Assembly (NCBI GenBank): GCA_900321275.1
Contig: ONVI01000002.1
Location: forward strand, 21,314-85,313
Reading direction: 5' to 3'
DNA: 64,000 bases
From: an uncultured Eubacteriales bacterium
GTDB lineage: Bacteria > Bacillota > Clostridia > Oscillospirales > Oscillospiraceae
Shown here: positions 31,872-60,296 of the stretch, one piece after another
How positions within the stretch are numbered: the stretch's first letter is position 1
Layout of the letters: the number at the start of each line of letters is the position of its first letter
Notes under the pieces: model-generated
The model's input: only the letters and a program-made list of their open reading frames with translations
Databases searched by the model: none
Told to the model about the DNA's origin: nothing
Translations under genes and position numbers: made by a program

Positions 31872-32288
31872 TTATTTGATTTCCGGTGACGGCGCGGGAA
31901 TCGGCTCTTCAGCGCCGGTGCTGTATCCGTCAAGCATCTTTACCTGGAAATTCTTGTCGATCTCGAACGTGTAAACCACCTGATCGGCCTGCTCTCCGCC
32001 TTCCCAGGCTCTGGCATAGGTAAACGTCACTTCCGTTTTTCCGGCTTTCAGCGGCGTCAGGGTAAAGGTTTCCGTGCCGCCGACGCCGACCATGCCCTCC
32101 GGGTGATCCTTTACGGCATAGCTGCTTTCAATCTTAAAAAGCTCTTCCGATTGAGCTGCCTGCCAGCTGAAGCCGGTGGTCGGGTTGGAATCAAGCGCGA
32201 TGGAAACGGTCTGAGGAGCAGGCGTTTCTTTTCCGCACGCGGCCAGAAGCAGAGCAAGCGCGAGAGCTATCATAACCATTTTCTTCAT
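31872..32288 (-). CDS. Chagasin-like (I42) cysteine-peptidase inhibitor lipoprotein
   Basis: A 138-aa lipoprotein: signal sequence with lipobox LAAC (Cys18), then an immunoglobulin-like domain carrying the three binding loops of the chagasin family: NPTTGF (35-40), GVGG (68-71) and RAWE (93-96; RPWE in chagasin). Such proteins block papain-like peptidases by inserting these loops in the active site. Its target could be one of the cell's own exported peptidases or a host or competitor enzyme. AAGGAGGG precedes the ATG. The promoter has a perfect 18-bp palindrome in its spacer, suggesting repressor control. Confidence 0.88.
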   Translation of the reverse strand: MKKMVMIALALALLLAACGKETPAPQTVSIALDSNPTTGFSWQAAQSEELFKIESSYAVKDHPEGMVGVGGTETFTLTPLKAGKTEVTFTYARAWEGGEQADQVVYTFEIDKNFQVKMLDGYSTGAEEPIPAPSPEIK

Positions 32289-32341: not shown

Positions 32342-32465
32342 TGAAGAAGTTGTAAATTCAGAATTCTTCAGGGGAGGGAAACAAATATTCCACAAAGATT
32401 TTTGGGACATTGCCGCCTGTGCTGGTGCACTTTTACCGAAAAGCGGAGAGCCGGGGAAAACGCCA

Positions 32466-32494
32466 TTGACTTTAGCACCAAAAAGTGCTAAAGT
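32466..32494 (+). promoter_or_regulatory. Promoter with embedded operator for the aromatic ABC operon
   Basis: TTGACT and TAAAGT with a 17-bp spacer. TTTAGCAC (32471-32478) and GTGCTAAA (32485-32492) form a palindrome spanning the spacer. It resembles half of a CIRCE site but the 6-bp gap is wrong for HrcA. Confidence 0.75.
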
Positions 32495-32523
32495 GATCTC
32501 ATCAACAAAAGGGAGATACTGTC

Positions 32524-32616
32524 ATGTTCATGCTTCGCTTTGCATATGCTTACAGCTATTACTTTTCCCGGTTCGGCAAAGGTAATGGCGGTTTGTGCTG
32601 CAAGAAGGAGCCTTGA
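32524..32616 (+). CDS. Tyr/Phe-rich leader peptide (30 aa)
   Basis: A 30-codon frame with its own ribosome site (GGGAG, 8 nt before ATG), 30 nt after the -10 box. The product starts MFMLRFAYAYSYYFSRFGKG and has four Tyr and four Phe in residues 2-17, no Trp, and ends GLCCKKEP. It is followed by an intrinsic terminator. Bases 32585-32598, in codons 21-25, can pair with the terminator's left arm (32657-32670). A ribosome held at the Tyr/Phe codons would leave them free to form the antiterminator, while one that reaches the stop would cover them. This is the arrangement of amino-acid operon attenuators. Confidence 0.8.
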   Translation: MFMLRFAYAYSYYFSRFGKGNGGLCCKKEP

Positions 32617-32650
32617 ACAGGATATGAGACAGAGCTTTCATTTCCGACTT

Positions 32651-32683
32651 CGCGCCGTACAGACTGCCGTCTGGCGGCGTTTT
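32651..32683 (+). terminator. Attenuator terminator of the aromatic ABC operon
   Basis: Left arm CGCCGTACAGAC and right arm GTCTGGCGGCG form a stem with a small internal loop, followed by TTTTCGATTT. The alternative structure pairs GTACAGACTGCCGT (32657-32670) with ATGGCGGTTTGTGC (32585-32598): 14 bp, of which four are G-U pairs. The two structures exclude each other. Confidence 0.8.
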
Positions 32684-32758
32684 CGATTTGGACCCTCTGC
32701 TCATTCTTCCGGTTGAAAGACAGGTCAAAATCAAAAAATGATAAAGGAGAAAAAGAAC

Positions 32759-33715
32759 ATGAAAAAGATCTTTGCTTTGATTCTCACGCTGTCTCTCGTT
32801 TTCGGCTTTGCCGCCTTCGGCGCAAGCGCCTACGCTGCCGACAGCTATACCGTCGGCGTCTGCCAGCTCGTCCAGCACCCCGCGCTTGACGCCGCGACCC
32901 AGGGCTTTAAAGACGCTCTGACCAAGGCCTTCGGCGACAAGGTCAGCTTTGTCGAGCAGAACGCCTCCGGCGATTCCGCCACCTGCGCCGTCATCTGCAA
33001 CCAGTTCGTCTCCGACGAGGTGGACCTGATCCTCGCCAACGCCACGCCGGCCCTGCTGGCCGCCCAGGCTGCCACCAACAAGATCCCCGTGCTCGGCACC
33101 TCCGTCACCGACTACGCCTCCGCACTTGACATCGAAGACTGGAAGGGCTCCACCGGCACCAATATCTCCGGCACCTCCGACGGCGTTCCCGCCAAGGAGC
33201 TGGCAGGCGTGCTGAACGAACTGTTCCCTGATGTCAAGAATGTCGGCCTGCTCTATTGCTCCGGCGAGCCCAACTCCAAGTTCCAGGCCGATGAGATGCG
33301 CCCCGTCCTCGAAGAGATGGGCTACAAGGTCGCGGACTACACCTTCGCAGACTCCAACGACGTTTCCGCCGTCACCAACAACGCCTGTGACGACTGCGAC
33401 GTGCTCTACATCCCCACCGACAACACCGCCGCCTCCAATGCGGAGCTCATCAACAACGTGGCCCTGTCCAAGAAGATCCCCATCGTCTGCGGTGAGGAGA
33501 ACCTCTGCGCCGGCTGCGGCGTGGCCACCCTCTCCATCTCCTACTACGATCTCGGCACCGTGACCGGCGAGATGGCCGCGAAGATCCTCTCCGAGGGCGC
33601 CGACGTCTCCACCATGGAGATCCAGTACGCTCCCTTCGCCAAGAAGTTCAACAAGACCAATTGCGACATCCTCGGCATCACCGTTCCCGATGCCTACGAG
33701 GCCATCGCAGACTGA
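32759..33715 (+). CDS. ABC transporter substrate-binding protein, TrpX-like
   Basis: A 318-aa exported binding protein of the ABC_sub_bind family (PF04392), which includes TrpX of streptococci. It has a signal peptide (MKKIFALILTLSLVFGF, cleavage near AYAA), then YTVGVCQLVQHPALDAATQGF (family opening), ILANATPALLAAQAATNKIPVLGTSVTD and VGLLYCSGEPNSKFQ, all typical. The Tyr/Phe-rich leader in front and the absence of Trp codons there suggest tyrosine or phenylalanine as ligand rather than tryptophan. ATG at 32759 follows AAAGGAG. It is the first structural gene; a hairpin separates it from the permease gene. Confidence 0.9.
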   Translation: MKKIFALILTLSLVFGFAAFGASAYAADSYTVGVCQLVQHPALDAATQGFKDALTKAFGDKVSFVEQNASGDSATCAVICNQFVSDEVDLILANATPALLAAQAATNKIPVLGTSVTDYASALDIEDWKGSTGTNISGTSDGVPAKELAGVLNELFPDVKNVGLLYCSGEPNSKFQADEMRPVLEEMGYKVADYTFADSNDVSAVTNNACDDCDVLYIPTDNTAASNAELINNVALSKKIPIVCGEENLCAGCGVATLSISYYDLGTVTGEMAAKILSEGADVSTMEIQYAPFAKKFNKTNCDILGITVPDAYEAIAD

Positions 33716-35574: not shown

Positions 35575-36213
35575 TTATATACCTTTTTTGTACAGAACAT
35601 ACGAATAGACGATCGGAACCAGCGTCATCACAAGGATCAGCGCAAAGAACAGGGGGAGGCTCCAGCCGATAAAGCTGAACACGATGAAGGCGACCCCGCA
35701 AAGCACCCATAGGAAGCCCGCCAGGCGATGCGTACGGTTCCAGTTTTCCTCGCTGGCCAGGGTCCAGGGGAGCTTGATGCCCATGGTGTAGCTCTGCTTG
35801 GTCTTGGGCAGATAGTTGCCGACGATGATGAACATCAGCCCCACAAAGATCGGGACTATACGTTCGATCCGCAGCTCGTATCCAAGTCCCCAGGCCAGCG
35901 TCAGCCCGCCTGCCAGAACAGAGACCACCGGGCAGATCCAACGGGTAATCCCCACCAGGGCGGAGCTCATGTTTCCCCTCTTGGGGTCGGCGTTTAGCGC
36001 GAAGTACAGCAGCAGGTTGATCCCGACTATCAGCGCAGGCAGACCGAAAACCGCGAAGGCGCGGCTCGAAAAGCCGTCCGGCTCCCCGCTCACATTCCAG
36101 TGTGTCACCATTGTCTCGGGCAGCCTGTCATAGACCAAAGCGCCGATGAGCATCGGCAGCAGGCAGACCAGCGTCGTCAAAATCAGCGTTCTCTTATCCC
36201 TCTTCATGTTCAT
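35575..36213 (-). CDS. sdpI: SdpI-family immunity/signalling membrane protein
   Basis: A 212-aa membrane protein with about six helices. The N-terminal half is DUF1648-like (LPETMVTHWNVSGEPDGFSS, residues 31-50). The C-terminal half has the SdpI signature (NYLPKTKQSYTMGIKLPWTL, then EENWNRTHRLAG). In Bacillus subtilis SdpI gives immunity to the SdpC toxin and holds SdpR at the membrane. No toxin genes (sdpABC) are present, so here the pair may protect against foreign toxins or sense membrane stress. It overlaps sdpR by 20 bp. Confidence 0.92.
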   Translation of the reverse strand: MNMKRDKRTLILTTLVCLLPMLIGALVYDRLPETMVTHWNVSGEPDGFSSRAFAVFGLPALIVGINLLLYFALNADPKRGNMSSALVGITRWICPVVSVLAGGLTLAWGLGYELRIERIVPIFVGLMFIIVGNYLPKTKQSYTMGIKLPWTLASEENWNRTHRLAGFLWVLCGVAFIVFSFIGWSLPLFFALILVMTLVPIVYSYVLYKKGI

Positions 36214-36475
36214 CCGCTCCCTTCAGGCTCTGAATCCAGAGCAGCACTTCCTCCAGCACGGAGGCGTTCAGACTGTAATAAATATAATTCTTCTCCCGGC
36301 TCTCGAAGATGAGGCCGGCTTTTTTGAGCTGCGACAGGTGATACGACACCGTCGCGCCGGTCATGTCGAAGCGCCCCGCGATCTCCCCGGCGGTCATGCG
36401 TCCGGATTTGAGCATGTTCAATATCTCACGCCGCGCGGGATCGGACAGGGCCTTCATCGTCTCGCTGAAGCCCAA
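36194..36475 (-). CDS. sdpR: ArsR-family repressor SdpR
   Basis: A 93-aa winged-helix regulator: MKALSDPARREILNML, then the recognition helix region MTGATVSYHLSQLKKAGLI and the wing FESREKNYIYYSL, as in SdpR. No metal-binding cysteines of ArsR are present, in keeping with an SdpI-controlled repressor. The start is TTG at 36475 with GGAGG 9 nt upstream. It is the first gene of the sdpRI operon; two palindromic sites around its promoter suggest autorepression. Confidence 0.92.
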   Translation of the reverse strand: MGFSETMKALSDPARREILNMLKSGRMTAGEIAGRFDMTGATVSYHLSQLKKAGLIFESREKNYIYYSLNASVLEEVLLWIQSLKGADEHEEG

Positions 36476-60079: not shown

Positions 60080-60296
60080 GCTTAAAAGCGAAGACGGAGA
60101 CGCGGATCCCAACCGGCGCACAGAGAGGGCGGCCATCGGCTGCAAGCTGCCCCGCAGAGAGGGATCACCGCACCGCTCCCGAGCCGGACGGAGGAAATGC
60201 CGTCCCGTGTGTCCGCGTTAAGGACCTGAATGAGTGAAACATCAAGGTGGAACCGTGCATTACGCACCCTTGGCCGAAAGGCTGAGGGTGTTTTTT
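60080..60296 (+). ncRNA. T-box riboswitch controlling thrS
   Basis: A tRNA-sensing leader. Visible parts: the AGAGAG-containing Stem I region (60122-60127), an ACC triplet at 60167-60169 (or 60172-60174) suited to act as threonine specifier, the T-box sequence AAGGTGGAACCGTGC (60244-60258), whose TGGA can pair with the end of uncharged tRNA, and a terminator (CACCCTTGGCC/GGCTGAGGGTG plus TTTTTT, 60265-60296). Uncharged tRNA-Thr would favour the antiterminator and switch thrS on. Confidence 0.92.

Follow-up and report, generated by a model that had tools for sequence, protein, structure and literature searches.

The element that precedes a TrpX-type ABC transporter operon in this uncultured Clostridia genome is very probably, to judge from its sequence and that of its relatives, a ribosome-mediated transcription attenuator of the trp type which senses both tyrosine and phenylalanine. 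We also think it fairly likely that the element belongs to an attenuator family not listed in Rfam, common in one taxonomic family and scattered through the class, which acts as a main control of the aromatic amino acids for many Clostridia of gut and rumen. Such a family would govern the operon leading from chorismate to tyrosine and phenylalanine and, in a subset of cases, an importer of TrpX type whose true substrate is tyrosine, with tryptophan placed under T-boxes.

In the window, by which we mean the whole 64,000-nucleotide stretch of DNA analysed, the element lies upstream of genes for a substrate-binding protein (SBP), a permease and an ATPase (Table 1). A sequence-only reading had proposed a promoter, a 30-codon frame with a ribosome site and eight Tyr/Phe codons and no Trp codon, a terminator and a competing complementarity, and each of these was located as it had described. 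The promoter comprises TTGACT (32466-32471) and TAAAGT (32489-32494) with a spacer of 17 nt; Phe or Tyr occupies leader codons 2, 6, 8, 10, 12, 13, 14 and 17. The 14 pairs between 32585-32598 and 32657-32670 are consecutive, four being G-U by our own count, and amount to -20.3 kcal/mol, and the terminator stem at 32652-32680 (-18.4 kcal/mol) is followed by a short U tract, GUUUUCGAUUUG. That reading had missed a further helix, of 32555-32566 with 32578-32589 (-15.8 kcal/mol), whose presence completes the set of 1:2, 2:3 and 3:4 pairings.

Table 1. Coordinates, in window numbering, of the attenuator and of the transporter genes downstream of it
Feature	Position	Strand	Remarks
Promoter TTGACT-N17-TAAAGT	32466..32494	+	TG before -10; sequence
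Leader ribosome-binding site GGGAG	32511..32515	+	sequence
Leader peptide MFMLRFAYAYSYYFSRFGKGNGGLCCKKEP + stop	32524..32616	+	ATG 32524, TGA 32614-32616
Segment 1, Tyr-Tyr-Phe codons, 5' arm of helix 1:2	32555..32566	+	-15.8 kcal/mol; arm-swap test
Segment 2, conserved GTAATRG..GTTTGTGCTGC	32578..32602	+	alternative partners: segment 1 (via 32578-32589), segment 3 (via 32585-32598)
5' arm of antiterminator 2:3	32585..32598	+	14 pairs, -20.3 kcal/mol; covariation
Segment 3, antiterminator 3' arm and part of terminator	32657..32670	+	pairing, covariation
Terminator 3:4 (stem 32652-32680) and short U tract	32652..32684	+	fold, covariation
Substrate-binding protein, PF04392, TrpX-like	32759..33715	+	nearest solved relative is tyrosine-binding CD0873
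ABC permease, PF02653	33775..34719	+	domain match
ABC ATPase, PF00005	34637..35524	+	listed frame; true start probably further in

The RNA of 32490-32690 folds better than 200 of 200 shuffled versions (z -4.5) and, in the calculations, untranslated RNA adopts 1:2 together with 3:4. In a folding scan, 2:3 was the outcome wherever the ribosome stalled up to about codon 17, provided that segment 4 had not yet been made, and 3:4 formed when the ribosome lay beyond about codon 20. Once the full leader had been made, stalls at codons 8, 9, 13 and 15-17 gave 2:3 as the minimum-energy fold, and stalls at codons 1-7, 10-12 and 14 gave the terminator. Since the terminator wins at several stall codons when segment 4 is present, the switch depends on the order of synthesis, with 2:3 forming before segment 4. 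The trp attenuator also depends on order of synthesis.

We infer that the leader is translated, that ribosomes stall within it and that shortage is what turns the operon on. The input would be charged tRNA-Tyr and, with it, charged tRNA-Phe. When both amino acids are plentiful the ribosome would run into segment 2, 3:4 would pair and transcription would end before the transporter genes. Should tyrosine (or phenylalanine) become scarce, the ribosome would stall at Tyr/Phe codons that lie within segment 1 and ahead of it, leaving segment 2 free to pair with segment 3 as the latter is made, and transcription would continue. If the leader were not translated at all, 1:2 would form and the terminator would win.

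The SBP was searched for in 61 genomes of the genus, the window's own included, and matched in 48. A set of 30 loci from this search plus 19 more taken as regions was reduced to 46 by dropping L009 and L016, which have no upstream sequence, and L050, a duplicate of L029. Aligning these homologous upstream regions, an analysis run as an attempt at refutation, upheld the attenuator at the level of sequence: a Tyr/Phe-rich short frame with a ribosome site lies just upstream in 37 of the 46 related transporter loci. The nine without a leader are L025, L026, L037, L039, L041, L042, L043, L048 and L049. Two of these, L048 and L049, are remoter SBP paralogues (41-42% identity) with T-boxes upstream; a Phe-specific reading of those T-boxes (perhaps UUC) is not one we hold firmly, since cmscan puts an insertion at their specifier. 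In L025 and L026 the conserved promoter is still present, with neither leader nor terminator seen, so that the operon may be constitutive there. Divergent versions of the element occur among the 37, at L040, L045 and L046. L040 and L045 have Tyr-rich leaders, different segment 2/3 sequence and an orthologous SBP downstream, and may each be a diverged or an independent attenuator, as far as their sequences tell. L046 has a Phe-only leader, MSMRHMTNVFKFSFRPFSFSFKKR, without Tyr, before an orthologous SBP that carries the same two selectivity residues as that of the window (see below).

Sequence close to the window promoter precedes most transporter leaders of the genus. Conservation of this promoter, TTGACTT...GTGCTAAAGT, is unusually strong across the transporter loci of the genus (window 32466-32494; L001-L047), and it may include an extra operator. 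A resemblance to the known CIRCE palindrome was considered and dropped, as the left half is variable. On the minus strand of the window, to either side of the element and its operon, are a frame for a chagasin-type inhibitor (31875-32288; PF09394) and, at 35578-36475, an SdpI-like protein with an SdpR-family autorepressor next to it.

The competing pairing proposed from the window alone is borne out by covariation. Of the 37 loci, 33 (27 distinct) were aligned, the divergent L040, L045 and L046 and the motif variant L020 being set aside, and the 2:3 helix was measured on an ungapped compact alignment because gaps in alignment A1 split part of it. Standard pairs fill 94.3% of its cells, and its covariation score is 0.362, compared with 0.194 +/- 0.018 for shuffled alignments (0/500 as high) and with no more than 0.115 when the arms are slid against each other. 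Pairs 3-28 and 4-27 occur as four and six standard pair types, respectively; by one of the five measures, the count of further pair types, the helix did not exceed the shuffles (17 versus 15.7, 134/500 as high). In L013 and some other species the covarying bases sit in the terminator loop, so that the terminator alone cannot explain the covariation. The terminator, 3:4, itself shows double changes at six of ten predicted pairs. For helix 1:2, whose arms fall in different columns of alignment A1, a swap test was used instead: across the 33 loci, own arms score -11.85 as against -9.39 +/- 0.37 for arms swapped between loci, with 0/2000 swaps as good.

The leader frame is conserved as well. Tyr and Phe together make up 38% of residues in the transporter leaders (33 loci) and 41% in the leaders found before aroF (16 loci; see below), compared with 6-17% when the other two frames are read. 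Differences between related leaders concentrate at third codon positions, both before the transporter (554 versus 340 and 327) and before aroF (265 versus 148 and 165), counts that are not independent of one another since locus pairs share members. By this pattern of substitution the leader is probably read as protein. The same pattern and the frame bias speak against a coincidental short frame beside a T-box or small-molecule riboswitch in front of the transporter, an explanation we find barely credible. T-boxes do stand upstream of other amino-acid genes here and of some SBP paralogues, but real T-boxes in relatives are detected by the searches, whereas the element gave only two sub-threshold Rfam matches at E<=10, mostly downstream of the terminator stem, which we took as chance. 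The T-box model RF00230 matched nowhere in the window at its gathering score and nowhere in 32440-32770 at E<=10, and at the element itself, whether that of the window or those of 16 element-bearing relatives (7 + 9), no Rfam 15 family reached its gathering score, the amino-acid operon leaders (Trp, Phe, His and others) included.

The length of the leader varies more than its composition. The 30 codons described for the window are correct there and represent a minority form elsewhere: in 80 loci from named genomes, scored by a simple script, the stop codon falls within or immediately ahead of the segment 2 motif GTAATRG at 67, whereas the frame runs through at 13, the window leader being of the run-through kind. 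Leaders that run through cross segment 2 in more than one frame, and the Tyr/Phe run stays in frame. Conservation of segment 2 is at the RNA level, with the reading frame across it varying, which suggests that the antiterminator stays fixed as the peptide and the RNA around it evolve independently of each other. These facts bear on nascent-peptide arrest of the TnaC kind, in which free tyrosine or phenylalanine would be the ligand and excess, not shortage, would induce. The aromatic, hydrophobic leader and the frequent stop codon in or just before segment 2 would suit such a device, but apart from being rich in Tyr/Phe the peptide shows little conservation, it crosses segment 2 in frames that differ between species, and induction of a biosynthetic operon by excess makes little sense; we consider arrest highly improbable and continue with stalling at Tyr and Phe codons as the preferred reading.

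The biosynthetic operon in question lies in the same genome, and the element is not the isolated oddity it had seemed. Model R1, which covers only segments 2 to 4 and leaves out the Tyr/Phe-coding part, matches 84 of 95 genomes of the genus at E<=0.01, a loose threshold that admits chance matches. Twenty R1 loci were opened; four lie before the transporter and 16 before the gene for 3-deoxy-7-phosphoheptulonate synthase (aroF), and a Tyr/Phe leader is present at all 16 of the latter. Among the matches in the genus, only those with E up to 1e-4 were opened, with one exception: L111 (E 0.0038), the third match in the genome of the window, which we took as chance. The second copy in that genome (G000:C28, E 4.6e-5) precedes aroF-tyrA-aroB-aroA-aroC-pheA-aroE and has a leader of its own, MKSAFFFASYYYFFTGSRR. 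With the same device before both the aroF operon and the transporter, uptake and synthesis would share one signal, the shikimate/Tyr/Phe operon answering shortage together with the importer.

T-boxes occur in the same genome, with eight matches, four of them above the Rfam cut-off. One above cut-off lies upstream of trpD, its specifier read by eye as UGG; another falls just below cut-off before a trpB-like gene and a third well below it before pheS, the gene names again assigned by eye. In the window itself, a T-box-like match of 56.9 bits (Rfam cut-off 93) at 60082-60274 on the plus strand precedes a frame resembling threonyl-tRNA synthetase.

Beyond the genus, R1 at E<=1e-4 matches 93 of 300 genomes and 40 of 82 genera in the family. 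A further model, R3, was built from 42 named loci excluding that of the window, which it nevertheless recovers at E 4.8e-7. Counting the window's own genome each time, R3 matches 38 of 346 genomes in the order, 18 of 342 in the class and three of 299 in the phylum; because the filters were strict, the spread figures are lower bounds. The loci opened were the higher-ranked ones; some of the lower-ranked matches are to the terminator part only. Either aroF, the transporter or pheA lies downstream at 26 of 26 parsed loci in the family, 29 of 29 in the order and 16 of 17 in the class. Four of these 72 loci were reached twice and so 68 are distinct, 67 of which precede such a gene (60 aroF, six transporter, one pheA). 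A leader with at least five Tyr/Phe is present in 66 of the 68, with a mild bias since the start was chosen to maximise Tyr/Phe among those preceded by a ribosome site. At L300, which lies before aroF, the script found no such leader, and L304, from the class search, was taken as a chance match. The two phylum matches outside the window's own genome are both aroF loci whose leaders have at least five Tyr/Phe.

Searching named genomes with a DNA pattern gave at least 119 stretches. Of the 80 examined among these, 65 lie before aroF and 12 before the SBP, and three were left by the script: L213, downstream of which tyrA can be recognised by eye, and L151 and L203, which end at the locus edge. 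The pattern fixes CTATTACTTT, so that Tyr/Phe counts from named genomes are partly built in; the Tyr/Phe richness claimed here rests on the R1-based and homology-based loci. Included in the 80 are [Clostridium] viride DSM 6836, whose copy is the aroF version, as well as Firmicutes bacterium CAG:103 and Candidatus Faecousia (Oscillospiraceae), and a family-mate of the window (G199) has a locus, L139, identical there to that of [Clostridium] viride (L155). At single loci the element stands directly before tyrA (L213) or before a frame for chorismate mutase/pheA (L295), in place of aroF.

The sequence hallmarks of a trp-type attenuator are found: a short leader with a ribosome site, rich in Tyr/Phe codons; mutually exclusive helices, 2:3 and 3:4 from covariation and 1:2 from the swap test only; an intrinsic terminator before the first gene, which the script finds in 79 of the 80 named loci; and, downstream, genes for the same amino acids, as in the aroF-tyrA-...-pheA operon and in 67 of 68 opened loci.

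What the transporter carries has to be judged from its SBP. The best NCBIfam match is to TrpX (NF041285), with a score of 220.4 bits, below the curated cut-off of 390. Of its solved relatives, CD0873 of Clostridioides difficile (6hni, E 3.4e-46) comes ahead of SP1069 (3lft) and VC_1101 (3lkv). The available text on CD0873 describes the protein with tyrosine bound (PMC6816091; 6HNI) and attributes its preference to Glu-263, which meets the tyrosine hydroxyl, and to Tyr-279, where a tryptophan binder has Gln (PMC6816091). Going by that account, E246 and Y262 of the window SBP align with these residues, so that its nearest solved relative is matched at both selectivity positions. Glu and Tyr are found at both positions in all 57 readable leader-type SBPs, a set in which L029 and L047 are not covered and some species are reached twice; leaderless orthologues carry both residues too. 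The two-residue rule is weakened, though, by three paralogous SBPs of about 30% identity (L313, L316 and L319), which lie under T-boxes reading UGG and align the same E and Y. The transporter is, on these alignments, probably a tyrosine importer. The earlier proposal that it takes up tyrosine or phenylalanine and not tryptophan therefore gains, for tyrosine, from the nearest solved relative and the two residues, and is kept short of proof by the paralogues that share them.

Those paralogues and the TrpX match are also the points in favour of an operon that imports tryptophan, with Tyr/Phe shortage a mere proxy. Set against them are the score, well short of the TrpX cut-off, a leader without any Trp codon, a nearest solved relative which binds tyrosine and, as far as the published description goes, the replacement of the tryptophan-type Gln by Tyr262 (PMC6816091), and we regard tryptophan import as decidedly unlikely. 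It is less of a stretch, if still unlikely, that the attenuator senses chiefly phenylalanine, the Tyr codons being secondary. The aroF leaders of the 65 named loci average 4.3 Phe and 3.8 Tyr per peptide, and the L046 leader has Phe only; but transporter leaders of the genus are dominated by Tyr (4.2 versus 2.9 per peptide, 37 loci), the window element has Tyr-Tyr in its segment 1, Tyr runs occur in the 16 aroF leaders of the genus, and the SBP has tyrosine-type residues. A sensor of both amino acids, serving a tyrosine importer, remains our reading.

If this is right, a regulator is supplied for the shikimate/Tyr/Phe operon of many gut Clostridia, most of them uncultured, and peptide attenuation and T-boxes would divide the aromatic amino acids between them within one genome. 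The leaders offer a route to correcting the substrate of transporters named TrpX. Handling of tyrosine and phenylalanine by gut bacteria bears in turn on host metabolites. A leader with codons for two amino acids also opens the question of how two signals are balanced by one attenuator.

In the trp and pheA attenuators of Escherichia coli, a short leader contains runs of codons specifying the amino acid under control, the RNA has 1:2, 2:3 and 3:4 helices, and a terminator precedes the operon. The window element shares all of these; it differs in mixing Tyr and Phe codons, in its conserved segment 2, GTAATRGNNNTTTGTGCTGC, and in being used for a transporter too. A peptide attenuator had been thought unusual for Clostridia, but in the portions available to us histidine versions are already described there (PMC9413887): classical His leader-peptide attenuators are reported from the Bacillus cereus group, Peptostreptococcaceae and Erysipelotrichales (PMC9413887, PMC2965389), and differ from the present family in the amino acid. 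The accessible account of ilv-leu in Staphylococcus aureus likewise presents leader-peptide attenuation in a Firmicute, with mutants behind it, the peptide there being leucine-rich (PMC5794164). T-boxes are described as a common device (PMC2494555), and TrpXYZ of Streptococcus suis, according to the sections available, is under a Trp T-box (PMC9382623): the transporter is of the same kind and its control is linked to shortage as well, with a T-box and tryptophan in place of the leader peptide and Tyr/Phe.

Closest to the present family, by description only, are published uORFs that are also short frames before shikimate genes. One is uORFC-13-1 of Acholeplasma, a short Phe or Phe/Tyr frame with a terminator before aroF (PMC8632094); two more, Phe/Tyr uORFs named in the legend to Fig. 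6b of a study of five genomes, could be family relatives, since Clostridium novyi is among the five (PMC6429828). The parts of these two papers at hand mention no transporter. Our search of the literature for leader peptides or uORFs with Tyr, Phe, aroF and Clostridia, from which subscription journals were mostly absent, yielded no account that we recognised as being of this family. The principle of attenuation is itself known; what stands out is the wide spread of the element, its double Tyr/Phe signal and its use before a transporter.
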